This document shows, piece after piece, positions 32,193-46,368 of a DNA stretch of 64,000 nucleotides. The DNA is from Brachyspira alvinipulli ATCC 51933 (GTDB lineage: Bacteria > Spirochaetota > Brachyspiria > Brachyspirales > Brachyspiraceae): NCBI RefSeq assembly GCF_000518245.1, contig NZ_KI912407.1, positions 60,949 through 124,948 on the forward strand, given 5' to 3'. Positions within the stretch are counted from its first letter, which is position 1. The number at the start of each line of letters is the position of its first letter. The translations under genes were made by a program, and so were the position numbers. The notes under the pieces are model-generated. The model saw only the letters and a program-made list of their open reading frames with translations, was not told the origin of the DNA and ran no database searches.

Positions 32193-34274
32193 TTACTTAT
32201 TATTACCCATTCTAGCACCGATTATCTCTTCAGCTACGTTTTTAGGCACTTCCTCATAATGTGAGAACTGCATTGTGTAGCTTGCTCTACCTTGAGATAC
32301 GTTTCTTATACTTGTTGTATATCCGAACATCTCAGCAAGAGGTACTGTAGCATTAATAGATTTATAACCAGACTTATCTGTAAATCCGTGAACCTGTCCT
32401 CTTCTTGAAGCTAAGTCCCCTATTATATCACCCATATAATCTTCAGGAGTTACAACCTCTACTGTCATCATAGGCTCCAACAAATAAGGATCAGCTTTTT
32501 TACAACCCTCTTTGAATCCCATTGAAGCAGCAATTTTGAATGCCATTTCTGATGAGTCTACTGGGTGGAATGATCCGTCATAAGCAGATACTATTACATC
32601 AAGCATAGGATAGTTAGCAAGAACACCTGTATTCATAGATTCTACACAGCCTTTTTCTACAGCTGGTATATATTCTCTTGGAACTGCTCCTCCAACGATC
32701 TCGTTATTAAATTTGAATCCGCCGTTAGGTTCATTAGGTCCAATTCTCAACCATACATCACCATACTGACCTTTACCGCCTGACTGACGTACGAATTTAC
32801 CTTGTACCTCAACTGTTTTCTTAATACCTTCTCTATAAGATACTTGAGGACGTCCAACATTCGCCTCAACCTTATATTCTCTTTTCATTCTGTCACAGAT
32901 AATTTCTAGGTGTAATTCACCCATACCTGCGATGATTGTCTGACCTGTTTCTTCATCAAAGCTAACTCTGAATGTTGGGTCTTCTTCAGCAAGTCTTGAT
33001 AAAGCTATTGACATTTTATCTCTGTCGCCTTTTGTTTTAGGCTCTATAGCAACGTTAATTACTGGTTCTGGGAAGTTGATTGATTCTAAGATGATAGGAG
33101 CATTTTCAGGACATAATGTATCACCTGTTGTTGTTTCTTTAAGTCCTACTGCTGCTGCTATATCACCACAATATACTTGCTCAATCTCTTCTCTTTTGTT
33201 AGCGTGCATCTGAAGTATTCTTCCGATACGCTCTCTTTTACCTTTTGTTGCATTATATACATAAGAACCGCCCTCTAATATTCCAGAGTAAACTCTTAAG
33301 AATGCTATTTTTCCTACATGAGGGTCTGTCATTATTTTGAATGCTAATGCACTGAATTTTTCATCATCAGCTATTTTTCTCTTTATAACATTACCGTCTA
33401 AATCTGTACCTTCTACTTCAGGTTTATCTACAGGAGATGGTAAATAATCAACTACTGCATTTATTAATACTTGAATACCTTTGTTTTTGAAAGCTGTACC
33501 GCAGAACATAGGGAAGAAATCTGCTGTCAATGTAGCTGTTCTTATAAGTCTTTTTATAGTAGGAACATCTATTTCCTCGCCTTCAAAGAACTTATTCATA
33601 GCTTCATCATCATATTCAACGATTGCTTCTAATAAAGAATTTCTATATTCTTCTGCTTTTTCTTTTAATTCAGGTCTGATTTCTCTTTCTTCCATTTTCA
33701 TGCCGTCTTCAGAAACCCAAACTATTTCTTTCATATTTACTAAGTCAACAACACCCTCAAAGTTGCTTTCTGCACCTATAGGTATAACTACTGGGTGACT
33801 GTTAGCTTTTAATCTTTCTCTTGTTTGTTCTAAAACAGCGTAGAAATTAGCACCTATTCTGTCCATTTTATTAACAAAAATAGCTCTAGGAATTTTATAA
33901 TTACTTGCTTGTCTCCAAACTGTTTCACTCTGAGGCTGAACTCCTCCTACTGAACAGAAAACACCAACCGCACTATCTAATACTCTCAAAGATCTCTCTA
34001 CTTCTGCAGTAAAGTCAACGTGCCCTGGAGTGTCTATCAAATTAATTCTATGTCCATTCCAAAAACAAGTTGTTGCAGCTGAAGTAATAGTAATACCTCT
34101 TTCTCTTTCCTGCTCCATCCAGTCCATTTCTGCTGCACCTTCATGAACCTCTCCGATTTTATGAGTTTTACCTGTAAAGTATAAAATACGCTCACTCAAA
34201 GTAGTCTTACCAGCATCGATGTGAGCCATAATACCAATATTACGTGTGTTTTCTAATGAAATTTGACGTGCCAC
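32193..34274 (-). CDS. fusA: Elongation factor G
   Basis: EF-G drives translocation. The P-loop [15 protein letters not shown], a normal switch I ([16 protein letters not shown]), DTPGHVDF and NKMDRIG are present, followed by domains II-V, including [21 protein letters not shown] and GFTDKSG near the end. At 693 residues it is standard. It lies 21 bases after rpsG, and a 74-base gap with a short palindrome (TAATAGTTACTATTA) separates it from tuf. Confidence 0.98.
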
Positions 34275-34295
34275 TTTTTACTTACTCCTTAAAAA

Positions 34296-34766
34296 CTACC
34301 ATCTAAAGTGCGCGAATGCTTTGTTACCCTCAGCCATTCTATGAACTTCATCTCTCTTAGCAACTGCCTGACCTTTTCCGTCTATAGCATCTACAATCTC
34401 ATTTGATAAACGTTCAACCATACTTCTTCCGCCTCTTTTTCTTGAAGCATTTATAAGCCATTTGAACGCTAAAGATTTTTGTCTGTCTTCTCTTACATCT
34501 ACTGGAACCTGATAAGTAGATCCGCCAACTCTTCTTGATTTTACTTCTACACGTGGTTTAATATTTTCTATAGCTTCATTAAAAGCTTCTAAACCATCTT
34601 TATTTGTTTTCTCTTTAACTACATCTATAGCTTTATAAAATATATTTTCAGCCTTACTTTTCTTTCCATCATACATTAATTTGTTTATAAATTTACTTAT
34701 ATCAACACTACCATAAATAGGATCAGCGTCTATTTTTCTAGATTGTGCTCTTCTTCTTCTAGCCAT
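34296..34766 (-). CDS. rpsG: 30S ribosomal protein S7
   Basis: [41 protein letters not shown] and [16 protein letters not shown] are the S7 signatures. S7 starts assembly of the 30S head and contacts E-site tRNA. At 156 residues it is standard. It lies 14 bases after rpsL. Confidence 0.98.
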
Positions 34767-34780
34767 ATTAATTTACTCCA

Positions 34781-35155
34781 TTAAGCCTTTGGTTTCTTAG
34801 TACCATATTTACTTCTAGCTTTCATTCTCTTTTCTACACCTGTAGCTTCACGGCTTCCGCGAACTATGTGATAACGGCAACCAGGTAAGTCTTTAACACG
34901 ACCTCCTCTTATAAGTACACGGTTGTGTTCCTGTAATGTATGGTCTATACCAGGAATATAAGCTGTTACTTCCATACCATTAGTTACTCTTACACGAGCA
35001 ATTTTACGCATAGCTGAGTTAGGTTTTTTCGGTGTAGTTGTTGTTACACGAGTACAAACCCCTTCTCTTTGCGGACATTTCATTAATGCAGGCGATTTTG
35101 TCTTGTTTATTATACGCTTGCGACCTTTTCTTACTAATTGATTAATTGTAGGCAT
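34781..35155 (-). CDS. rpsL: 30S ribosomal protein S12
   Basis: S12 monitors decoding. [43 protein letters not shown] and the C-terminal [12 protein letters not shown] identify it. The streptomycin-related positions read [10 protein letters not shown]-like (here [10 protein letters not shown]), with the lysine of KKPN that is wild type in sensitive bacteria. At 124 residues it is standard. It is the first gene of the supercluster. Confidence 0.98.
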
Positions 35156-35353
35156 AAAATACTAAACCCTCTAATATTTATTTTTTGTACAAATTTTATT
35201 TCTTAAATTCCTAATCCTAACGGAAAGGTAATAACTAAATTATTCTTTAAAACTTCAAACACGAAACAGTATAAAACACACCGAGCATTTATAGTATTAA
35301 TAATTTAAGAAACTATACTATACGCTTTAATCGCTTTTTATGAAAGTTAGATG

Positions 35354-35382
35354 ATTATAAATCAATAAACCAAAAAAATCAA
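35354..35382 (-). promoter_or_regulatory. Promoter of the rpsL/str-S10-spc-alpha supercluster
   Basis: TTGATT (35382-35377) and a perfect TATAAT (35359-35354) are 17 bases apart on the minus strand. This is the best promoter in the window and the only clear one ahead of the long run of translation genes. Transcription would start near 35347, leaving a long untranslated leader. Confidence 0.75.
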
Positions 35383-35438
35383 TAGTATTTAATACTTTTT
35401 TTCACTTTTTTACTAAAATTATATTTTAATTTTTTTCA

Positions 35439-35467
35439 TTGAAAAATCATTATAAAAAGAATATAAT
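35439..35467 (+). promoter_or_regulatory. Promoter of the TauE/SafE-like gene
   Basis: TTGAAA (35439-35444) and TATAAT (35462-35467) are 17 bases apart. The ATG follows only 11 bases after the -10 box, so the transcript would have about four or five untranslated bases. No ribosome binding site is possible, and the gene would be read from a nearly leaderless message. Confidence 0.6.
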
Positions 35468-35478
35468 ATATAACTATT

Positions 35479-36285
35479 ATGGTTATAATATTTTTATTAG
35501 TAAGTTTATTTGCTTCAAGTATAGGTGCTATATTCGGTATAGGCGGAGGAGTTATAATAAAACCTGTATTAGATTCTTTAAATTTAATGGAAGTAAGTAA
35601 AATAAGTTTTCTATCATCATGCACAGTATTATCTATGAGTTTATATTCTTTTATAAATTCAAAAATATCCGGAAAAAGTTTAGTTGATACAAAAATAGCT
35701 ACTCCTTTTGCTTTAGGAGGAGTAATAGGGGGATTTGTAGGAAAGATACTATTTTCTCAAACTATAAAAGCATTCAATAATGAAAATATAGCGGGAATTT
35801 TTCAATCATCAATATTAATACTGCTGATATTATTTACTCTAATATTTACTATTAAAAATATGTCAAAAAATAAAATTAAACCTATGCATATAAAAAATAT
35901 ATTCTTATGTATTATTATAGGTATGTTTTTGGGGTTGCTTTCTTCATATTTAGGTATTGGTGGAGGGCCTTTTAATATTACTTTCCTATACCTATTTTTT
36001 GCTATGGATAATAAAATTGCTGCTGAAAACTCTCTTTATATAATACTATTTTCCCAAATATCAAGCGTACTTACCGCATTAATAAAAAATGAAATACAGG
36101 GAATTAATATATTCATTTTAATAGTAATGATTATAGGAGGAATAGGAGGAGGAATCATAGGAAGAAAGATTAATAAAAAAATGGATTCAAGCTCCTTTGA
36201 TAAAGTATTCATTATAATTTTAATACTTATAATATTAATAAGTATATATAATCTACATGTTTTCTCTTCTAAGCTTTCTATATAA
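35479..36285 (+). CDS. TauE/SafE family membrane exporter
   Basis: The 268-residue, very hydrophobic protein has two repeat halves, each with the family glycine motif: IGAIFGIGGGVIIKP near residue 15 and SYLGIGGGPFNITFL near residue 157. About eight membrane segments are expected. TauE/SafE members move sulfite, sulfoacetate or other small organic anions; the substrate here is not known. Being next to a sulfonate-type ABC importer operon hints at a sulfur compound. Its 3' end overlaps the convergent ROK gene by 33 bases. Confidence 0.8.
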   Translation: MVIIFLLVSLFASSIGAIFGIGGGVIIKPVLDSLNLMEVSKISFLSSCTVLSMSLYSFINSKISGKSLVDTKIATPFALGGVIGGFVGKILFSQTIKAFNNENIAGIFQSSILILLILFTLIFTIKNMSKNKIKPMHIKNIFLCIIIGMFLGLLSSYLGIGGGPFNITFLYLFFAMDNKIAAENSLYIILFSQISSVLTALIKNEIQGINIFILIVMIIGGIGGGIIGRKINKKMDSSSFDKVFIIILILIILISIYNLHVFSSKLSI

Positions 36286-37443
36286 ACTATACATATAAAA
36301 ATCATATATCGATATAGAAGCAGCTGCATGTATTTCTATTTCTTTAAAGTTTTCTACTATTCTTATATCCGTTAATAAATTATATGAATGAACTCTATTT
36401 TTAATTTCTTCTATAAAATCAGAACCTAAATAAAGCATTTCACCGCCTATAAATATTATTTCTGGGTCAAATGTATTTATTATATTATATATTCCTATAG
36501 AAACCCAATAAGCTAAAAAATTTTTATACACATCAATTACTATACTATCATTAATATGACTGCTTACAATATCATTAAAATTTAAATCTTTATATTTATT
36601 ATCTCTATTTGAAAGCTCTTTCATAAAAGCCTTTATACTTGCTACAGACTCCCAGCATCCCTTTTTGCCGCAGCTGCATATATAATTAGAATCTGTTACT
36701 ATAGTATGTGAGTAGTTAGCAGCTGTATCATGTGTACCATATAAAATTTTACCATTATTAGAAACTGATACACCAATCCAATTACTTAAGTACACATATA
36801 CAGAAGAACTTTGTATAGGCATAGATCTTTTCATTTCTTCAACAATATTGTATGTCAGCATGGCACAAGCATATCTGTCTACTATAACATCAATATTGAT
36901 ATTTTCTTCTATATATTTTTTTAAAGGTATATTATTCCATTCAGGTATTCCCATACAATCTATCAATAAATTATTTTTCTTTCCTGTCTTTCCTGGTACT
37001 GATATACCTGCAGAAAATATTTTTTTATCTTTATGATTGCTTACAAGTTCATTTATTTTCTTTATTATAGGCTCAAATGTTCTTTTATAATCATCATATA
37101 TATGAACATCTAATATACACTCTTCTAATATTTCATTTTCTAAATTAACTATAGCTATATGGCAAATTTCTCGTCTAAAATGAATTGCTATAAAATATCC
37201 TATATTTTTATTTATATCCAATAGTATAGGTTTTTTTCCTCCATGAGAAGATGATTCCCCATCACATTTCTCATATATTATACCCATATTAATCAAATCA
37301 TCTACAAGTACAGATATACTTGCTTTGCTTAATTCTAAATTGTATGCTAAATCAGCTCTAGAATAATTACCTATTTTTAGCATTTTCACTATATCAATAT
37401 AATTTTGCTCTTTTAAATGTTTTGCCTTTAATCTCTTCATCAT
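36253..37443 (-). CDS. ROK family transcriptional regulator (NagC/XylR type)
   Basis: The N-terminus is a winged helix-turn-helix (NYSRADLAYNLELSKASISVLVDDLI, near residues 20-50). The rest is a ROK sugar-kinase-like fold with a cysteine zinc site, CSCGKKGCWE near residue 255 of the long frame. The frame opens at 37479, but the ATG at 37443 (or 37440) fits the usual ROK N-terminus (MKRLKAKHLKEQN) and leaves out codons that overlap a hairpin. ROK regulators usually bind a sugar or sugar phosphate. The likely target is the operon at 37835-43573, which has a ROK-like dyad at its promoter. Confidence 0.85.
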   Translation of the reverse strand: MMKRLKAKHLKEQNYIDIVKMLKIGNYSRADLAYNLELSKASISVLVDDLINMGIIYEKCDGESSSHGGKKPILLDINKNIGYFIAIHFRREICHIAIVNLENEILEECILDVHIYDDYKRTFEPIIKKINELVSNHKDKKIFSAGISVPGKTGKKNNLLIDCMGIPEWNNIPLKKYIEENINIDVIVDRYACAMLTYNIVEEMKRSMPIQSSSVYVYLSNWIGVSVSNNGKILYGTHDTAANYSHTIVTDSNYICSCGKKGCWESVASIKAFMKELSNRDNKYKDLNFNDIVSSHINDSIVIDVYKNFLAYWVSIGIYNIINTFDPEIIFIGGEMLYLGSDFIEEIKNRVHSYNLLTDIRIVENFKEIEIHAAASISIYDFYMYSLYRKLRRENM

Positions 37444-37463
37444 ATTTATTATCACAATATAAA

Positions 37464-37491
37464 AAGATGATATATACATCTATATCATCTT
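37464..37491 (-). promoter_or_regulatory. Terminator-like hairpin just upstream of the ROK gene
   Basis: AAGATGATATA and TATATCATCTT pair perfectly (11 pairs, 6-base loop) and are followed on the minus strand by a T-run (CTTTTTAT). It lies about 20 bases before the chosen ROK start. It could be an attenuator or an operator for autoregulation. Confidence 0.5.
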
Positions 37492-37834
37492 AAACCATTT
37501 TTATTTATTACGGATAATTAATTAATATATATCTGCAATTTTGTCAATATAAAACTATATTTTAATGTTTTGATAAATTTATATTTGATTAATAATATAA
37601 ATAACCTAATAATATTTTTTATAGGTATAATATCAATTATTATAATATTTAACATATACAATATTTTTTAGAAAATATAGATTATTTTTATCTTTAATAT
37701 GTAATTGCTAAATATATTCCAACAAATATATTTAATTTACAAAAAATGAATACCTAAAAATTAAATATATACAAATATTATATAAAAAACTGGCAGTATT
37801 ATAATTTTTACAAAATACTGCCAGTAAATATAAA
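37492..37834. other. Intergenic region between ROK gene and ABC operon end
   Basis: About 340 very AT-rich bases. They hold a possible ROK promoter (TTGACA at 37547-37542 on the minus strand, without a good -10 box) and the operon terminator at 37783-37825. No gene is seen in either strand. Confidence 0.5.
37783..37825 (-). terminator. Intrinsic terminator of the ABC/propeller operon
   Basis: ACTGGCAGTATT and AATACTGCCAGT form twelve perfect pairs around a 13-base loop, followed on the minus strand by TTTTTTATA. It lies 10 bases after the stop of the last operon gene. It is the clearest Rho-independent terminator in the window. Confidence 0.88.
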
Positions 37835-38845
37835 TTATTTATTTAATATATTATCAGTAATATATTTTATTTGCACATAATTATTAACATCAACTGGTTC
37901 AGTAACCACTTCTGAGTTTATAAATATTTTTTGCTGAGCTTCATACCATTTAGCAGCTGTTCCGTCAGCATAAGTAGTTTTTATATCATTAGAAGTTAGC
38001 CATATAGCAGTTTCTTTCTCTAATGCTACAGAATCAACAGGAGTTCCATTTAATTTAGCAACTATTTCAACTGCCTCATCCATATTAGCATCTCTATAAT
38101 CCATAGCTTTAAATATAGCTCTTGTAAACTTATTTACTATTTCAGGATTATTATTTTGATAGTCAGGAGTAACTATCCAGCTACTTGGAAATACTGCTTC
38201 ATCCAAATAGTTTGTAATAGATGTTGCAACGAATACTTCATCTCCAAGCTGTTTTGATATTTCAAATGTATAAGGAGCCCATACAGATACTGCATCAACT
38301 TTCTTACCAACCATAGAAGATACTATACCGCTTACATCCATATTAACAACTTTTACATCATCTTTAGTAAGTCCTACTTTTCTTAAAGCAATATCCAATA
38401 CTATATCTCCAGAAGTACCTAATTGAGTACCAACTGTTTTACCTTTTAATCCTGCTAAATCTTGAACACCAGACCATTTTCCAATAATAATCTGTTCTGA
38501 TTTGCTTAATCCGTTAGGGAATAATACATTGACTTTGCCTTGAATAGCAAGAGAATGAGCACCATGTCCTATATACGCAAATTGAATATCTCCAGAAAGC
38601 ATAGCAGCAACTTCAGAAGGTCCATTTAAAAATTTAACTAATTCTACTTCTAAACCTTCTTCAGTAAAAAATCCTTTTTCCTGAGCGATAGCAGCTGCAG
38701 AAGTACCAGCAAAATCTGCTAAATAAGCTACTCTTATTTTAGCGGATTCAGTAGAATTCTGAGAAGCAGCATTGTTACCACCGCATGATACTGTTAAAAA
38801 CATTGATGCTATTAACAATAAAAAAATATGCATAGTTTTTTTCAT
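37835..38845 (-). CDS. ABC transporter substrate-binding lipoprotein, NMT1/SsuA type (1)
   Basis: A lipoprotein signal precedes the lipobox (MFLTVSCGG, cysteine near 21). The mature part is a periplasmic-binding fold of the nitrate/sulfonate/taurine group: RVAYLADFAGTSAAAIAQEKG, MLSGDIQFAYIGHGAHSLA and KGKTVGTQLGTSGDIVLD. It is 336 residues long. It is similar to the second binding protein at 41479-42462, so one importer appears to use two receptors. A GGAG-type site precedes the ATG. Confidence 0.85.
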   Translation of the reverse strand: MKKTMHIFLLLIASMFLTVSCGGNNAASQNSTESAKIRVAYLADFAGTSAAAIAQEKGFFTEEGLEVELVKFLNGPSEVAAMLSGDIQFAYIGHGAHSLAIQGKVNVLFPNGLSKSEQIIIGKWSGVQDLAGLKGKTVGTQLGTSGDIVLDIALRKVGLTKDDVKVVNMDVSGIVSSMVGKKVDAVSVWAPYTFEISKQLGDEVFVATSITNYLDEAVFPSSWIVTPDYQNNNPEIVNKFTRAIFKAMDYRDANMDEAVEIVAKLNGTPVDSVALEKETAIWLTSNDIKTTYADGTAAKWYEAQQKIFINSEVVTEPVDVNNYVQIKYITDNILNK

Positions 38846-38881
38846 TTAAAAGTCTCCTTAAAATAAATTATTTTTTATATA

Positions 38882-39829
38882 TTATCTTCTTAAAGCCATT
38901 CTTCTATATGTATGAACTTCACCCCTTAAAACTAATGATATAGCCATTGCATTCATAGGACTTGATATTCCACCTACTCCAGCATCTCCAATATGCATTA
39001 TATCTGCTCCAGCCATTTTAGACATTAATGCTATATTTTTTATAGTATCGATAGGAGATCCTTCCTGTGCCGTACCTATTGCTGTTTTTGTAAGCATTCC
39101 AAATCCTTTAGCTTCATCTATTAATTCATGTACCTTTTCTACTGTATATCCTGGTAAAGTTCCTGGAGCTCCAAACATTATTACATCAGCACCAGCATCT
39201 GCTATTTGTTTAACAGTTTTTTTAGTATCAGTATTTCCAGCACCTGCTCCATGCATCTTTCCTGCAACAATCATCATCTTTCCTTTTGCTACAGAAGCCA
39301 ATTCTTCAGTTGCTTTTGCTATAGTATCCATAGACACTTTTGTATGAGGATTACCCGTCAATACTATATAGTCAAATCCAAAATCTAATGCTCTTTTATA
39401 ATTATCTTTATTAGCCTTTAAACCTTCAGGATAATCAACATCATCAGGCACAGGCTCTAAATTAACACCTATAAATCTACCTGTATATTTTTTTATCCTT
39501 TCAATATGATCCTTCCTATTTCGTGAAGACTCATATAATTTTAATTGACCTTTAAATGTTCTCTCTGCTAAAGGCAAAGAATTATCAGCTTCAACCTCAT
39601 CTAAATCATATATAAAAGGGTTCAATAAGTCAAATATATTTAATGTTATAAGATCTACACCCATAGCAGCCAAAATTTCCGGGTCTGTAACTTTTTCTAC
39701 TAAAGGTCTTTTATATATAAGAGACTCAGCCATCAATGTTCTGCCTTCAGAATTTCTTATAGTTTCTATAAGAGTATTTGTATCCATATTAAAAGTATCG
39801 TTATAATTAAGTTCAAATATTCTCTTCAT
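38882..39829 (-). CDS. TIM-barrel protein of unknown function
   Basis: The 315-residue soluble protein shows barrel-like strand-helix repeats with glycine-rich ends: ILAAMGVDLITLNIFD, YIVLTGNPHTKVSMD, MMIVAGKMHGAGAGNTD, VIMFGAPGTLPGYT and DIMHIGDAGVGGISSP. The last strands look like a phosphate-binding site. The pattern resembles a family often found beside sugar transport genes (sometimes labelled PEP phosphonomutase-like or HAD-like), but I cannot assign a reaction. It sits between two ABC transport genes, so an enzyme acting on the imported compound is a fair guess. Confidence 0.65.
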   Translation of the reverse strand: MKRIFELNYNDTFNMDTNTLIETIRNSEGRTLMAESLIYKRPLVEKVTDPEILAAMGVDLITLNIFDLLNPFIYDLDEVEADNSLPLAERTFKGQLKLYESSRNRKDHIERIKKYTGRFIGVNLEPVPDDVDYPEGLKANKDNYKRALDFGFDYIVLTGNPHTKVSMDTIAKATEELASVAKGKMMIVAGKMHGAGAGNTDTKKTVKQIADAGADVIMFGAPGTLPGYTVEKVHELIDEAKGFGMLTKTAIGTAQEGSPIDTIKNIALMSKMAGADIMHIGDAGVGGISSPMNAMAISLVLRGEVHTYRRMALRR

Positions 39830-39851
39830 AATATTATAAACAACCCTTTAA

Positions 39852-40637
39852 TTATTTTTTTGCCTCTAAATATTCCTGATAAACTAATTGCCATAATTGG
39901 TTCTTTATATCATTGAACTCTTTAGATAATTTAGTTTCGGGTACTCTAGGATAATCTATAGGTACTTCAACTATTGCCTTTATTCTTCCAGGACGAGGAC
40001 TCATTATAACAACTCTTTGAGCCAAAAATACAGCCTCATCAACATCATGTGTAATGAAGAAACATGTTTTCTTTTCATTATCCCATGTATTCAATAATTC
40101 AGTTTGTAATTGTGCTCTAGTCTGTGCATCCAATGCTCCGAAAGGTTCGTCCATAAGAAGTATATTAGGATTAACAGCATAAGCTCTTGCTATTGCAACA
40201 CGCTGTTTCATACCTCCGGAAAGCTCTTTAGGATATGAGTTTTTAAAATCTATTAATCCAACAGCTTTTAAATAATGATCTACTATTTCATTTATTTCTG
40301 CCTTTGATTTCTTTTGAAGCTCTAATCCGAAAGCTACATTTTTAGCAACTGTAAGCCATGGAAATAAAGCATATTGTTGAAACACAACTCCCCTATCAAC
40401 TCCGGTACCTTCTATAGGCTTTCCATCTATTTCTATAGTTCCAGAATTAGGCGTATCAAGTCCTGCAAGTATATTAAGCAATGTACTTTTTCCGCATCCT
40501 GAAGAACCTATAACGCATACAAATTCATTCTTATAAATATCCAAGTTAACATTATCTAAGGCATGAACATCTTTGGATGTACCTTTATATATTTTACTAA
40601 CATTAGAAATTTTTACTTTTACTTCTTTGTTTGCCAT
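39852..40637 (-). CDS. ABC transporter ATPase, SsuB/TauB type
   Basis: Walker A GSSGCGKSTLL near residue 43, Q-loop VVFQQYALFPW, signature LSGGMKQRVAIARA, Walker B ILLMDEPFGALDAQTR and switch FITHDVDEAV are complete. PFGALDAQTR with the FPWLTV segment is typical of the nitrate/sulfonate/taurine importer group. It is 261 residues long and powers the permease encoded 18 bases upstream. Confidence 0.92.
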   Translation of the reverse strand: MANKEVKVKISNVSKIYKGTSKDVHALDNVNLDIYKNEFVCVIGSSGCGKSTLLNILAGLDTPNSGTIEIDGKPIEGTGVDRGVVFQQYALFPWLTVAKNVAFGLELQKKSKAEINEIVDHYLKAVGLIDFKNSYPKELSGGMKQRVAIARAYAVNPNILLMDEPFGALDAQTRAQLQTELLNTWDNEKKTCFFITHDVDEAVFLAQRVVIMSPRPGRIKAIVEVPIDYPRVPETKLSKEFNDIKNQLWQLVYQEYLEAKK

Positions 40638-40655
40638 AATTATATCTCTTTAAAA

Positions 40656-41426
40656 CTATCTTTTCTTTTTTTCTTGCCATACTGTTAATTTATTTTCTAT
40701 AATACTTACTATTAGATTAAGAACTAATCCTGTTATACCTATAAGTATTATACCAAGCATAACAATATCCATTCTAAAATATAAACTAGCTTCCTGTATC
40801 ATCTGACCTAAACCAGCACTTGAACCTGTTAATTCAGCTGCTATTAATGTAGTAAGTGAAGCACCAAGTCCTAAACGCATACCAACCAATATATAAGGAA
40901 CAGAAGCAGGTATTACAACTTTTAAGAAAATATCTTTATCTTTGGCTCCTAAAACTCTAGCTGCTTTTATTAAAGTTTGATCAACCTCTCTTACACCTTG
41001 ATAAACAGTAATAATCATAACTAAAAAAGTAGATATAAATATAACTGTTATTTTAGCACTTTCTCCAACTCCCTGAGCAACTACAACTAAAGGTATATAT
41101 GCCAAAGCTGGTATATTTCTTACAAATTGTATTACAGGCTCTATTAATAACTGAACCGGCTGATACCATCCCATTAAAAATGCTATAGGTATTGAAACTA
41201 TAAATGCTAAAGCAAATCCTGACAATACTCTAAACAAACTTATACCTATATGATTTAATAATTTTCCATTGCTCATTTCTCTTACAAATGACTTTAAAAC
41301 ATCAGCAGGACTTGCTATAACAGCACCTGCTACTGATGATGAAACTAATTGCCATACCAATAATGCTATTATAACAGAGGCAATGGTAAATATATATTTC
41401 TTCTTTCCCATAGGTTTACTATTCAT
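40656..41426 (-). CDS. ABC transporter permease, SsuC/TauC type
   Basis: The 256-residue protein has about six membrane segments and the coupling motif AARVLGAKDKDIFLKVVIPAS followed by VPYILVGMRLGLGAS near residues 155-195. IASPADVLKSF near residue 38 is typical of SsuC/TauC. It should dimerise in the inner membrane with the ATPase at 39852-40637. Confidence 0.92.
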   Translation of the reverse strand: MNSKPMGKKKYIFTIASVIIALLVWQLVSSSVAGAVIASPADVLKSFVREMSNGKLLNHIGISLFRVLSGFALAFIVSIPIAFLMGWYQPVQLLIEPVIQFVRNIPALAYIPLVVVAQGVGESAKITVIFISTFLVMIITVYQGVREVDQTLIKAARVLGAKDKDIFLKVVIPASVPYILVGMRLGLGASLTTLIAAELTGSSAGLGQMIQEASLYFRMDIVMLGIILIGITGLVLNLIVSIIENKLTVWQEKKKR

Positions 41427-41478
41427 AATTTTTCCTTTTTATAGTATATACTATGATTTACTAATAAAACTTTAATAT

Positions 41479-42462
41479 TTAGTTTAATGCTTTTTGTATA
41501 ATGTCAACTCTTGTGTATTTATCAACAGTTACAGGTTCTGTACTCAATCTATTATTCTGTACAAAATATTCTATTTGTTTTTGATACATATTAGTAAGGC
41601 TTCCATCTTGAATCATACTCTTCATTTTATCAGAATACATCCAATCAGAACTATATTTTTCTTTTGAAACTGTTTCCACATCCAATCCAACAAGCTCAGA
41701 TACATTAGTTATAGACTCATCTAAATGATCTTTTCTATAATCCATAGCCTTATATAAAGCTCTTAAAAAACGTATTACTGTATCTTCATTGGATTCTAAA
41801 TATTTTTGAGTTACAATCCAGCTTGCTGTAGAATCAACCTCTATTTCCTGAGGCTGTATTATATTAAGATTTTCTCTTCCTATTCTCTCATCTATTTCAA
41901 CAGTATAAGGAGGCCATACAGATATAGCATCTACTTTATTAGCTAAAAAAGAAGCAACAGCACTTGAAACCTCAGCATTAAGTATATTTATGTCTGACTT
42001 ATTAATTCCTGTACCTACTAATACTTGATCTATGATAGTTTCTCCTGATGTTCCTAATTGAGTTATTAAACTTTTTCCAACCAATTTTTCCACACTATCT
42101 ATACCGGAAGTTTTTAATGTTCTAATACCTTCAACAACTGCTATTCCGTCAGTAGCTATTATTTGAACTTTTCCTTCTGCTGCTAATGTATGAGCACCAA
42201 AACCTATATATCCGATTTGTATATCTCCGGAAACCATAGCTGCTATCTCAGTAGGACCGCTTGTAAATTTAACAAGTTCTATATCCAAACCTTCATCTTT
42301 AAAATAATTTTGATTGATACCTGTAATAATAGCAGATGCTCCTCCCATATTAGGATGATATGCAACTCTTACTTTATTAGAAGATGTATCATTTTGTTTG
42401 CCACAAGATGCTAATACAATTAAAGATATTATTAATATATATATTGTAGATTTTTTAATCAC
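41479..42462 (-). CDS. ABC transporter substrate-binding lipoprotein, NMT1/SsuA type (2)
   Basis: The lipobox is IVLASCGKQ (cysteine near 20). The fold matches the first receptor: VRVAYHPNMGGASAIITGINQ, MVSGDIQIGYIGFGAHTLA and LITQLGTSGETIIDQVL. The start is GTG with a GGAG site 7 bases upstream. At 327 residues it is clearly related to the receptor at 37835 but diverged, as expected for a different ligand or a duplicated receptor with changed specificity. Confidence 0.85.
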   Translation of the reverse strand: MIKKSTIYILIISLIVLASCGKQNDTSSNKVRVAYHPNMGGASAIITGINQNYFKDEGLDIELVKFTSGPTEIAAMVSGDIQIGYIGFGAHTLAAEGKVQIIATDGIAVVEGIRTLKTSGIDSVEKLVGKSLITQLGTSGETIIDQVLVGTGINKSDINILNAEVSSAVASFLANKVDAISVWPPYTVEIDERIGRENLNIIQPQEIEVDSTASWIVTQKYLESNEDTVIRFLRALYKAMDYRKDHLDESITNVSELVGLDVETVSKEKYSSDWMYSDKMKSMIQDGSLTNMYQKQIEYFVQNNRLSTEPVTVDKYTRVDIIQKALN

Positions 42463-42484
42463 TTTTTTTCTCCATAAATAAAAA

Positions 42485-43573
42485 TTATCTTAAAATATCT
42501 TCTATTTCAGCATTGCTCAAGAAATTCATAACTAAAGGCTGAGATTTATTATCCTGAGACTGCTGCCAAGTAGCATACATTCCATCCTTAGTTCTTAATA
42601 CATCAACATATCTTGAACATCCTGTACCATAAGGACTTATAAATAAAGGCAATTCTTTACTTATTCTTTCAATATGAGAGAATGATCCATTTTCTATATA
42701 TGCCACTCCGCCTAATTCCTCACATGAATATCCTCTAGGTCTTTTTACAGCTTTTTCATGCTCATCTAAATTTCTTACACATTCTCCACCATCATAGAAG
42801 AATAAACTTACTCTTTTATTTTGTAATATTCCAATCTGAGGCATATCAATAACACAAGTTCCTCTAGTCATAGCAATATCCCAAGTATGACCTTTTTCAA
42901 AGAAATAAAATACTGGGGCTTCAAAATTAAGTTTCTCACCTCTTCTTATCATATATCCTGTATTTGAACTAGTCCAGTTATATGGATGTGTACAGAACAT
43001 TAAATATTTTTCTCCATTATAACTATCATATACAAAAGGATCTTTTAAATGTATAAATCTTGAATCCTCACCTTTAATAAGCTCTTTTACATTAGAAGCA
43101 CTTAAATTTTCTATTTTATCAGCTACTATAACATCAATATCCCATACACCTGTGCCTGGTTTTAAATATTTTTTAAGATGATCTGGATATTTATTTTCAG
43201 ATTTTTCAGAAGAAATATAAAGCTCTACTTCATTATCCTTATTAAATCTCAAAGCAGTACCTTCTATAGATAAAACACCTCTTGGAAGCTCTTTTTTTAA
43301 TATGCTTTTTACTTTTGTCCAAGTATTTCCTTTATCAGAAGACTTAAATATAGCTAGTTCTGCTCCTCTGTCTCCCAAATCAAGTCCTGTTCTTGAATCT
43401 CCAGAATTTCTATATCTTCCAGAAATATATAAATTTCCTTCTTTATCTTCTACCATATTTCCGCCGCCGAACCAATATCCGATTTCAGGAGTTACCGGTA
43501 CTATTATTTTAGCTTTTTTTTCATCTATTAGCTTAAGAGAAAATTCCATTAATTTTTTTTCTAAATTTGTCAT
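42485..43573 (-). CDS. Asp-box beta-propeller protein, putative glycoside hydrolase/sialidase-like
   Basis: The 362-residue protein has propeller-like repeats and one sialidase-type Asp box, FKSSDKGNTWTKV near residue 75. Other polar motifs that could form an active site are EIGYWFGGGNMVEDKEG, HLKDPFVYD, WDIAMTRGTCVID and LFFYDGGECVR. No signal peptide is seen, so it probably acts in the cytoplasm on an imported compound. It could be a GH43/GH130-like or sialidase-like enzyme; the family is not certain. It is the first gene of the operon, with AAAGG before the ATG. Confidence 0.6.
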   Translation of the reverse strand: MTNLEKKLMEFSLKLIDEKKAKIIVPVTPEIGYWFGGGNMVEDKEGNLYISGRYRNSGDSRTGLDLGDRGAELAIFKSSDKGNTWTKVKSILKKELPRGVLSIEGTALRFNKDNEVELYISSEKSENKYPDHLKKYLKPGTGVWDIDVIVADKIENLSASNVKELIKGEDSRFIHLKDPFVYDSYNGEKYLMFCTHPYNWTSSNTGYMIRRGEKLNFEAPVFYFFEKGHTWDIAMTRGTCVIDMPQIGILQNKRVSLFFYDGGECVRNLDEHEKAVKRPRGYSCEELGGVAYIENGSFSHIERISKELPLFISPYGTGCSRYVDVLRTKDGMYATWQQSQDNKSQPLVMNFLSNAEIEDILR

Positions 43574-43901
43574 GATTATTACCTTTACTTTATTTTTTAG
43601 ATATTAATTAGTATAGTAAACTAACTAACCAAAATCAAGATAAAGCAATACAAAATAACAAATTATGATGATTTATTTTTTGAAATTTTAATATTATTAG
43701 TAATTGATATTTCTGCTATTTAAAACATTAATACAAACTTTAATTTATTCAGTAAATTTATAATATTTAATAAGAATTATTTTTATATCTTTCAATTTAT
43801 TCTACTATAATATAGAAACAGTTATATATTATGATTTATAATAGCATCTCTAATATATATTAAGAATATACTAATTTATAGTATATGATAAAAAACTATT
43901 A
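43574..43901. other. Intergenic region with operon promoter
   Basis: Apart from the promoter and dyad at 43608-43638, this 328-base stretch is AT-rich sequence. It holds a short stem TATACTA/TAGTATA (near 43868-43886) after the thioesterase gene that may help end that transcript. No gene is seen. Confidence 0.5.
43608..43638 (-). promoter_or_regulatory. Promoter and putative ROK operator of the propeller/ABC operon
   Basis: TTGATT (43638-43633) and TATACT (43615-43610) are 17 bases apart on the minus strand. Overlapping the -10 box is a dyad TTAGT-N7-ACTAA (43608-43624), extended as AATTAGT/ACTAACT with one mismatch. It resembles XylR-type ROK operators, which have TTAGTTT...AACTAA arms. A repressor bound here would block the promoter. 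Confidence 0.6.
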
Positions 43902-44414
43902 TTATGGAATATCTATAGTTTTAGGATCGCTTTCTTTTTTCTCTACAAACCAATCTTCTTCACTATTAGGATCCATCTCTGCTATTTTATCAAGCCCCAT
44001 ACAAATATAAGTACCTTTAGCAGTTACAGCGATTTTTCCATCATTTAAAAGTATATAACCCTCACCCTCATAAATTCTTCCATCTCCGGATGTAATTTTT
44101 CCTACTATTCGTATTTGTTCATTAATAGGAACAGGTTTTTTATATTTTGTAGTAAGAGTCATAGTAACACCCCATTTTTCCTCTCCAGTATAAGGCATCA
44201 TAGCTCTTCCTATAGTTTCATCTAAAATTGCGGCAAGTATTCCTCCATGCACTCTGGAAGGATATCCTTGATGAACATCTCTAAAAGTAACCAAAGCACA
44301 TAATGATTTATCTTCAAGTTCATAAAACTCAGCTTTCAAACTTAAATCATTTTTAAATCCGCACACTAAACACATTCTAGAATTATTCTGTTTATTTAAT
44401 ACCTTTAATTCCAT
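43902..44414 (-). CDS. PaaI-type hotdog thioesterase
   Basis: The 170-residue protein has the acyl-CoA thioesterase signature SRVHGGILAAILDETIGRAM near residue 55, with the HGG turn and downstream Asp-Glu, and strands typical of the 4HBT fold. A CLVCG start near residue 15 is seen in many members of this group. The substrate is unknown. It is a single gene, with no clear partner on either side. Confidence 0.85.
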   Translation of the reverse strand: MELKVLNKQNNSRMCLVCGFKNDLSLKAEFYELEDKSLCALVTFRDVHQGYPSRVHGGILAAILDETIGRAMMPYTGEEKWGVTMTLTTKYKKPVPINEQIRIVGKITSGDGRIYEGEGYILLNDGKIAVTAKGTYICMGLDKIAEMDPNSEEDWFVEKKESDPKTIDIP

Positions 44415-44526
44415 AAAAAACTCTCAAAACTTTATTCTATAATTTTGAGTTAAATATTAATACTTTTGTACAAAAAAACAATATCACTATTTATTTTTTA
44501 TTACTTTTTATGTAAAAATAAGTTTT

Positions 44527-44573
44527 ATAAAACGTTTTATTTAGTTGACAAAAACGAAAATTAAATTTAATAT
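44527..44573 (+). promoter_or_regulatory. Promoter of the YtxH operon with upstream palindrome
   Basis: TTGACA (44545-44550) and TAATAT (44568-44573) are 17 bases apart. Just upstream is a perfect 14-base palindrome, ATAAAACGTTTTAT (44527-44540), overlapping a second one, GTTTTATAAAAC. The position 5 bases before the -35 box suits an activator or repressor site. Confidence 0.6.
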
Positions 44574-44611
44574 TAAGCCAAAAGTTATATAACCTAGGAG
44601 GATATTTTATT

Positions 44612-44875
44612 ATGTCTAAAGAAGTATCAGGAGTATTTTCATTCTTATTGGGTTTAACTGCAGGTGTAGCATTAGGTATACTATTTGCTCCAAAAGCAGG
44701 AGAGGAAACAAGAGAAGATATTAAAGAAACTGTGGAAAATATAAAATATAAAGTAGATGATCTTTATCACAGAGGAGTTTTGAAAACTTCAGAATTTGTT
44801 GAAAAAGGAAAAGAAAAAACCAGCGATTTCTTTGATAAAAGAAGAAAAAAATCTAGCGAAGAAGCAGAAGAGTAA
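44612..44875 (+). CDS. YtxH domain protein
   Basis: The 87-residue protein has one N-terminal membrane segment (VFSFLLGLTAGVALGILFAP) followed by the YtxH mark FAPKAGEETREDIKETV and a charged helical tail. Members of this family are small membrane-anchored proteins, often stress linked. A strong AGGAGG site lies before the ATG. Its stop overlaps the next start by one base (TAATG). Confidence 0.85.
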   Translation: MSKEVSGVFSFLLGLTAGVALGILFAPKAGEETREDIKETVENIKYKVDDLYHRGVLKTSEFVEKGKEKTSDFFDKRRKKSSEEAEE

Positions 44876-45270
44876 TGCAGGATATTACATTTCAAATAAA
44901 TGTTATAGCTATATCATTAGCTTTTATTGCAATATCTACACTAATATTGGTGTTAGCTATATTTTTTGTAGTGCTTGCTAGTTATTTTAGATTCACTAAT
45001 AGATTTGATAAAATTCTAGAAAATGTTGAATCTATTAGTGAAAAAATAAATAATATTACAAACACTGTAAATGAAGAAGCAGACAAAGCTAGATCTACTT
45101 TAGATGTTGTACATGATACATTTAATAATTTAGCTGAGAGTGTTAATAGCTTTAGTATAATAACTAAAGATTTTATGAATAATTTTAATATATTTAATAT
45201 TGTTCAATCTATATTCAGTTTATTCACTGGAAAAAAGAAAAAAAACACAGATGATGATTTTGATTTATAA
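44875..45270 (+). CDS. Small membrane protein, DUF948-like
   Basis: The 131-residue protein has one long N-terminal membrane helix (ISLAFIAISTLILVLAIFFVVL) and then a predicted coiled coil with repeated Asn, Ile and Val (FDKILENVESISEKINNITNTV). This is the layout of DUF948 proteins, which often follow YtxH genes. It is co-translated with the YtxH gene. A joint role in the cell envelope is likely but not known. Confidence 0.7.
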   Translation: MQDITFQINVIAISLAFIAISTLILVLAIFFVVLASYFRFTNRFDKILENVESISEKINNITNTVNEEADKARSTLDVVHDTFNNLAESVNSFSIITKDFMNNFNIFNIVQSIFSLFTGKKKKNTDDDFDL

Positions 45271-45285
45271 TAGGATTTTTTATAT

Positions 45286-46368
45286 ATGTTAAGAAAGGTA
45301 TTATTTATAGTTTCGTTTATTACTTTATTATTTAATTTTTCATATTCTCAGGATGATTCTAATTGGGTCATAAGAATAAGAGATGCAGAAGGTAATGTAA
45401 AAAAACTTATTACAGTTGAAAATTGTCTAACTGAAATATCAAATCTTTCCATATTAAGAGGAGCTCCAGAAGAAGCTGTAAATATTATACTTACAAATGA
45501 TCTTCAATTATGGCAGTTTGCTTCCCAGCTTATAGAACAAGAATTAATGTACATGAAAGCTGTTGAAGAAGGCTATGATAAAGATGAAGAAATTGTTAAA
45601 TTAATCTCTAAAGAAAGAGATAATCAAATATCACAACTATATATGCAGGAAAAAGTAAGTGATGATTTCGGTGTAGTTTCTGATGAAGAAAAAAGAAGAT
45701 TCTTTAATAATAATAAAGCACGTATACAGGCAGCTGTAGGACCTAATGTAACTTATGAACAAGTTGCTATGGATATAGAAACTACTATTTTGCAAGAACG
45801 TATGCGTAATGAATATGATAAAATCATAGATGCTGCAAAAACAAATTATAATTTAGTATATTCTGTAAATAGTGATCCCTGTGTATCTATAGAAGACCAT
45901 ACTATCCCATTATCAGAATTTAATGATATGTTTAATGAATCTTTAAAACAGGCTGGCGGAAATATACCTGCCGCATTAAGAATACAAGCAAGAGACGGAA
46001 TGTTTAAAGCATTTGTGGCTAGAGAAGTTATGATTTATGAAGCTAAGAAAACAGGATTTTATGATACTCCTCAAGCTAAATCTATAGAAAACTTTTTAAC
46101 TAGAAGTGCTGTTACAACACACTATATAGATAAGACTATAAGATCAACTATACCAAAACCTACAGAAGAAGAAATTAATGCCGCTTATGAACAATACGGT
46201 AAAATATATAATATAGATTCTCTACCCTATGCTGATGCACAGAAAGCTCTCGAAACATTAGTTATAGAGGCTAAAACTCAGCAAAAATATCAATTATTAA
46301 TAACAGATTTGAGATATAGATACAATATAGAAAAAAATCTATCACTCTTAAATCCTAAAAAGGATTAA
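45286..46368 (+). CDS. SurA-like periplasmic chaperone without PPIase domain
   Basis: A signal peptide (MLRKVLFIVSFITLLFNFSYSQ, cut near residue 21) leads into 340 residues of mostly helical sequence. The segment LQLWQFASQLIEQELMYMKAVEEG, with helices before and after, resembles the SurA/PrsA-type N-terminal chaperone domain. No parvulin PPIase domain can be seen. It probably helps outer-membrane proteins cross the periplasm, and a beta-barrel gene follows directly. The assignment rests on pattern only. Confidence 0.55.
   Translation: MLRKVLFIVSFITLLFNFSYSQDDSNWVIRIRDAEGNVKKLITVENCLTEISNLSILRGAPEEAVNIILTNDLQLWQFASQLIEQELMYMKAVEEGYDKDEEIVKLISKERDNQISQLYMQEKVSDDFGVVSDEEKRRFFNNNKARIQAAVGPNVTYEQVAMDIETTILQERMRNEYDKIIDAAKTNYNLVYSVNSDPCVSIEDHTIPLSEFNDMFNESLKQAGGNIPAALRIQARDGMFKAFVAREVMIYEAKKTGFYDTPQAKSIENFLTRSAVTTHYIDKTIRSTIPKPTEEEINAAYEQYGKIYNIDSLPYADAQKALETLVIEAKTQQKYQLLITDLRYRYNIEKNLSLLNPKKD

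Follow-up and report, generated by a model that had tools for sequence, protein, structure and literature searches.

A gene cluster on the minus strand (positions 36253-43573) of the 64,000-nucleotide stretch of Brachyspira alvinipulli DNA analysed here, referred to as the window, is best classed as a sugar-utilisation operon that combines an unusual class of importer with two enzymes without an assigned function, and it falls outside the Tau and Ssu systems. In the order of transcription, it encodes a protein with an Asp-box motif, the lipoprotein receptor 2 (SBP2), an ATP-binding cassette (ABC) permease, an ABC ATPase, a TIM-barrel protein of the family DUF7916 (PF25509), and the lipoprotein receptor 1 (SBP1), followed by a terminator and the gene of a ROK repressor. 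An anionic, probably sulfated, amino sugar is the simplest compound at which the themes of DUF7916, the Asp-box protein, the receptor class, and the altered ROK protein meet; that the operon would serve the uptake and intracellular breakdown of such a sugar from mucin or glycosaminoglycan is proposed tentatively, with a probability that falls a little short of even. Brachyspira species are colonisers of the large intestine that are attracted to mucin in varying degree, and the genus is known to possess sulfatase genes (PMC2897892). The genes named in the initial annotation of this DNA were all recovered on the minus strand, except for a TauE/SafE gene on the opposite one, and their families were confirmed by Pfam/NCBIfam. 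Its suggestion of an uptake and catabolic locus under ROK control with sulfonate-type receptors is borne out by the conservation of the operon and by a candidate operator that is tied to the ROK-containing copies.

The locus is a real, conserved unit, beyond chance, because its order is kept across Brachyspira and its core recurs in two further genera of spirochaetes. It is retained by at least ten Brachyspira genomes; the full order, Asp-box gene, SBP2, permease, ATPase, DUF7916, SBP1, and ROK, is present in five Brachyspira neighbourhoods as well as in the loci of B. pilosicoli and B. hampsonii, which are its nearest relatives with a name. Among those loci, protein identity is 91-97% for the Asp-box protein, permease, ATPase, and DUF7916, while it is lower for the receptors (72-82%) and for ROK (76-80%). 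A third receptor gene adjoins SBP1 in two genomes, and three further Brachyspira copies (G016, G017, and G024) are composed of Asp-box gene, permease, ATPase, SBP1, third receptor, and ROK, DUF7916 and SBP2 being absent. Outside Brachyspira, the same initial order of Asp-box gene, SBP2, and permease is found in two spirochaete genera (G515 and G548), with ATPase and DUF7916 following in G515 before the contig ends, and with a divergent GntR/UTRA regulator at the place where ROK would be. Separation of the genes in relatives, which according to the initial annotation would refute its proposal, was thus not encountered. The operon occupies more than one chromosomal place within Brachyspira, which suggests that it has moved. 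In the B. pilosicoli locus, transposase-like remnants (L018:10997-11646) lie between DUF7916 and SBP1. The G024 ROK gene (L123:4423-5615) is split into two open reading frames by either a frameshift or an assembly error, and genes for an NCS1 permease of the cytosine/purine type and for a nucleoside deaminase lie directly upstream of the operon in G019 (L025:2465-4444) but in none of the further genomes that were examined.

The DUF7916 protein (38882-39829, minus strand) scores 330 bits against the family profile (cut-off 27) and retains the residues that are invariant across 25 diverse members. It is modelled as a TIM barrel of eight beta/alpha units, with a mean predicted local distance difference test value (pLDDT) of 65 and poor ends; a structure search with this model returned generic TIM-barrel matches, IMPDH first, at a TM-score of about 0.4. 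Among 398 sampled Bacillota genomes, 39 contain DUF7916 above the cut-off. Phosphotransferase system (PTS) genes are located within 4 kb of DUF7916 in 33 of 38 non-spirochaete loci, namely 37 loci from the Bacillota sample and one Enterococcus faecium plasmid; a representative neighbouring IIBC component scores 584 bits in the model of the N-acetylglucosamine-specific PTS, above the cut-off of 553. In some Bacillota loci, the neighbours include NagA, NagB, and MurQ, each scoring above its equivalog cut-off, as well as a sugar isomerase resembling AgaS. A survey of the neighbourhoods of the TIM-barrel family, as proposed in the initial annotation, leads mostly to PTS genes outside the spirochaetes, joined in some loci by amino-sugar genes. 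Other Brachyspira carry a second kind of DUF7916, which in the loci examined mostly adjoins a lactose/cellobiose-family PTS IIC gene. Profile comparison gave NanE a probability of 74%; a xylose-isomerase-like TIM-barrel control reached 9.5%, and the other controls stayed below 1%. A Pfam scan gave no NanE match for the window protein. The likeness to NanE agrees with what HHpred is reported to have given for a PEP phosphonomutase-like protein of the pneumococcus (PMC3283741). From these contexts we infer that DUF7916 would convert an amino sugar or an amino-sugar phosphate. The family was not found by name in the literature searched, and neither it nor the Asp-box family was found on viral contigs. 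DUF7916 is contained in L069, L070, and 221 plasmid records, being common on E. faecium plasmids and occurring also on E. coli plasmids. On the E. faecium plasmid examined, it is accompanied by a PTS IIC component, a tagatose-bisphosphate aldolase, and an AgaS-like isomerase. The annotation of the plasmid proteins reads PEP phosphonomutase or haloacid dehalogenase-like hydrolase, and the Pfam assignment speaks for neither.

The first gene of the operon (42485-43573, minus strand) encodes the Asp-box protein, which comprises 362 amino acids without a signal peptide and has no significant match in Pfam, NCBIfam, or the PDB. Its sole recognisable motif is one Asp-box, SSDKGNTW. The initial annotation had described it as propeller hydrolase-like; the Asp-box is indeed there, and a propeller fold and a hydrolase function would be predicted from this single motif, there being no family match beside it. 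An AlphaFold2 model built from three near-identical sequences reached a pLDDT of 31. BNR_6 was the best match among homologues (E 0.0069, in 3 of 20), the window copy matched no BNR family, and none of these matches is significant; comparison of the Asp-box profile with BNR_2 and GH130 revealed nothing beyond the Asp-box, by a weak method that also missed the link between BNR_2 and GH130. Within the searches made, the family is spirochaetal and belongs to no named family: it is present in 13 of 296 spirochaete genomes and in 22 of 297 of a second sample, with no relatives in the 398 Bacillota genomes and none on plasmids. An alignment of 20 members contains the invariant residues R53, R55, R61, R69, R237, R278, R280, R321, K124, K138, and K177, together with a KDP motif (177-179) and E285/E286; the many basic residues among them would fit an anionic substrate. 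Five of 19 genomes from the second spirochaete sample, in which many contigs are short, have a sulfatase gene no more than 2 kb away from the Asp-box gene (L150, L156, L162, L165, and L168; 0.23 expected), in four of the five on the same strand. The Cys-x-Pro-x-Arg motif is retained by the neighbouring sulfatases, and those four whose start is reliable have, as judged by eye, no signal peptide; desulfation would therefore be intracellular. ROK regulators are found near Asp-box homologues in six loci, and further neighbours are CUT1-type importers (recognised by sequence), KduI, a GH88-like protein, GH95, xylose-isomerase-like barrels, and GFO/IDH oxidoreductases. In G644, the genes of an ABC permease of the ribose type and of a zinc dehydrogenase precede the Asp-box gene, and a LacI regulator is encoded nearby.

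The importer consists of a permease of the SsuC/TauC type (BPD permease; 40656-41426) and an ATPase of the nitrate/taurine type (39852-40637), both identified by Pfam/NCBIfam matches, and is served by SBP2 (41479-42462) and SBP1 (37835-38845), all on the minus strand. The two receptors score 83.5 and 83.8 bits with the NMT1/SsuA family; in the SsuA-family model TIGR01728, SBP1 is just above the cut-off (164.5 versus 163.5 bits) and SBP2 is below it at 113 bits. When aligned to TauA, SBP1 retains the hinge residue Glu106 and Trp176, and has Ser at the position of Thr132. Asp205 of TauA, which binds the ammonium group of taurine (PMC6906117), is replaced by Ser in SBP1, and according to the receptor alignment there is no Asp at this position in SBP2. 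The third receptor paralogue of several Brachyspira operons (L022:9969-10985, L124:9316-10203) has lost the pocket Trp, with SVQAPY or AVQAPY in place of SVWAPY. Replacement of Asp205 and loss of Trp from the third receptor argue for diversified ligands, probably larger or different acids, rather than for taurine, and the loss of this sulfonate-type Trp also suggests that receptors with different ligands may feed one transporter. Some Brachyspira also encode, within a few kb of their second kind of DUF7916, an SBP1-like receptor of about 44% identity (L027:13957-14988, L028:252-1337) that is an orphan, with no permease or ATPase of its own nearby.

Transcription would start from a single sigma-70-like promoter, TTGATT-N17-TATACT (43610-43638, minus strand), the first base of whose -35 element, position 43638, coincides with the end of the locus as given in the initial annotation. 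The evidence for this promoter is its conservation in 10 of 10 Brachyspira loci compared, the consensus match by itself not being evidence in AT-rich DNA. It is overlapped by a 17-bp palindrome, TTAGTnTAnTAnACTAA (43608-43624, minus strand; one match in the window versus 0.02 expected), a candidate ROK operator, which spans the spacer and the -10 element upstream of the Asp-box gene in the same ten loci. Searched with up to 2 mismatches, a 21-bp form of the palindrome occurs exactly once per genome, at the operon promoter, in the four genomes with the operon that were tested, and all 12 other Brachyspira genomes tested lack it; nor was the palindrome found upstream of the GntR-linked operon copies. 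Its conservation and its absence where the regulator is swapped point to ROK as the candidate repressor of this promoter. The ROK gene itself (36253-37440, minus strand; 114 bits by Pfam/NCBIfam) is part of an open reading frame that reaches 37479, and its true start is probably near 37440, because the relatives begin at MKRLKA. It is probably transcribed separately, since a strong, T-tailed hairpin (37783-37825, minus strand; -17.3 kcal/mol, z -4.8) lies between SBP1 and ROK; similar T-tailed repeats were noticed by eye in other loci. Control by a riboswitch was considered and rejected, there being no Rfam match over positions 34000-46000. The ROK protein, whose closest PDB match is Lmo0178, keeps the zinc motif CxCGxxGCxE and the ROK domain, and its N-terminal helix-turn-helix is weak by Pfam and clear when aligned to Lmo0178 and Mlc. 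The sugar-site motif ExGH is absent, ANYSH replacing GExGH in all Brachyspira copies compared, and the effector is thus probably not a plain sugar.

Based on these data, a scenario can be drawn up in which two to three SsuA-class lipoprotein receptors would capture the substrate through its acidic group, and the single-permease ABC transporter would, as follows from the families, bring it into the cell in unphosphorylated form. The cytosolic Asp-box protein would act first, either by hydrolysis or by removal of the acid group, whereupon the NanE-like barrel of DUF7916 would convert the amino sugar or its phosphate toward central metabolism. In the absence of substrate, ROK would occupy the palindrome of the single promoter, as suggested by the conservation of this element and the exchange of the regulator.

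The receptor, permease, and ATPase families are shared with SsuABC/TauABC, and the positions Glu106, Trp176, and Ser/Thr132 are kept in SBP1; unlike those systems, the operon has neither a desulfonation enzyme nor the Asp205 of TauA, but two or three receptors, a ROK regulator, and sugar-linked enzymes. DUF7916 proteins of N-acetylglucosamine/chitobiose PTS loci of Bacillota and of other Brachyspira PTS loci are about 40-50% identical and keep the conserved residues, whereas in the operon a sulfonate-type ABC importer takes the place of the PTS, and NagA and NagB are missing. A pneumococcal island comprises ROK, a Lac-family PTS, a PEP phosphonomutase-like protein, a sulfatase, and TauE, and deletion of its ROK gene raises the transcripts of PTS and sulfatase (PMC3283741). 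The combination of ROK with a TIM-barrel protein described as PEP phosphonomutase-like, in the company of TauE and a sulfatase, is a striking parallel to the operon; the island differs in its uptake by a PTS, in having its own sulfatase, and in that no Asp-box protein is reported. Sulfatase/uronide clusters of spirochaetes (L150, L152, L156, L162, L165, and L168) contain the same Asp-box family at about 46-54% identity, but CUT1-type or TRAP importers where these could be seen, sulfatases, and no DUF7916 that could be found.

The TauE/SafE gene (35479-36285; 110.8 bits), which overlaps the end of the ROK gene on the opposite strand and adjoins the str operon, is common to Brachyspira genomes. 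As a member of the operon it was rejected, since most operon genomes have it at another place: TauE genes that score much like the window copy (about 107-111 bits) are located far from the operon in G003, G009, G016, and G019, and one is present in G013, a genome without the Asp-box gene. Of the initial idea that a sulfated sugar would be imported, cleaved inside the cell, and its sulfur product exported, the sugar catabolism and the link to sulfated sugars are favoured by the contexts of the enzyme families and the nearby sulfatases; the participation of this TauE did not hold, so that the export step is without support from the window. For the Asp-box family at large, export by TauE may still hold, because TauE/SafE directly adjoins the Asp-box homologue in two distant spirochaetes (L152, and L160 with TauE at G765:C203:4364-5047).

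Several observations weigh against a sulfated amino sugar as the substrate. The operon contains no sulfatase, sugar kinase, or named glycosidase; no sulfatase was seen near DUF7916 in the Bacillota loci sampled; and the SsuA receptor class is, to our knowledge, not known to carry sugars. The enrichment of sulfatases near Asp-box genes has a nominal P of about 5e-6, which is optimistic because the theme was seen before being tested. The pneumococcal parallel would presuppose that the PEP phosphonomutase-like protein of the island belongs to DUF7916. Finally, three Brachyspira genomes possess the operon without DUF7916 and SBP2, so that the amino-sugar step would be optional. The lack of a sulfatase and the copies without DUF7916 would be the weakest links, ligand and reactions being predicted. 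A more far-reaching proposal, by which the Asp-box family would be a new intracellular carbohydrate-active class for sulfated sugars and the SsuA-class importer would be dedicated to a sulfated amino sugar, is arguable but doubtful; we know of no previous attribution of sulfated amino sugars to importers of this class.

Among the alternatives, a non-sulfated acidic sugar, such as a uronate disaccharide or a sialic acid derivative, would be gripped by its carboxylate and attacked by a sialidase- or glycosidase-like Asp-box protein. This is unlikely, even though an Asp-box homologue is clustered with KduI, a KduD-like dehydrogenase, and a GH88-like protein, the family has weak matches to sialidases, and DUF7916 resembles NanE: KduI and the GH88-like protein occur in one locus each, the KduI locus also has a sulfatase, no sialidase profile matches the Asp-box protein, and an ordinary NanE is already encoded elsewhere in the genome. 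Decidedly unlikely is conventional scavenging of organosulfonates for sulfur, in which the other two enzymes would process the carbon skeleton. It would explain why importer and receptors are nearest to sulfonate systems and why SBP1 keeps Glu106, Trp176, and the Ser at Thr132 of TauA, but not the absence of SsuD or TauD among the operon genes, the Ser in place of Asp205, the receptor paralogue without Trp in sister species, or the sugar-type regulator and the association of both enzyme families with sugar genes elsewhere.

Still less probable is another small anion, for instance a plant aromatic or aliphatic acid, for which the enzymes would have been recruited to a new use; the breadth of the receptor class, the lack of assigned chemistry for both enzymes, and the departure of the ROK effector site from the sugar consensus would allow for it, whereas both enzyme families recur in sugar contexts in distant bacteria. 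Least probable of all is the import of a vitamin or nucleobase-like precursor (thiamine pyrimidine or part of riboflavin), as performed by other NMT1-family transporters. While THI5 and the N-formyl-aminopyrimidine-binding protein are among the matches of the receptors, and G019 has its permease and deaminase genes directly upstream, that pair occurs in only one of the genomes examined, the locus contains no thiamine or riboflavin gene and is under ROK control, and no Rfam family, including the thiamine pyrophosphate riboswitch, matches this region at E values up to 1.

Summarizing, two protein families that had no assigned function, of which DUF7916 is widespread in Bacillota, including E. 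faecium plasmids, gain a concrete, testable candidate role in the use of amino sugars or sulfated sugars. If uptake and breakdown of an anionic amino sugar were the true function, intestinal spirochaetes would possess a dedicated route to feed on the charged sugars of mucus, and annotations of such importers as taurine or sulfonate transporters would be misleading.

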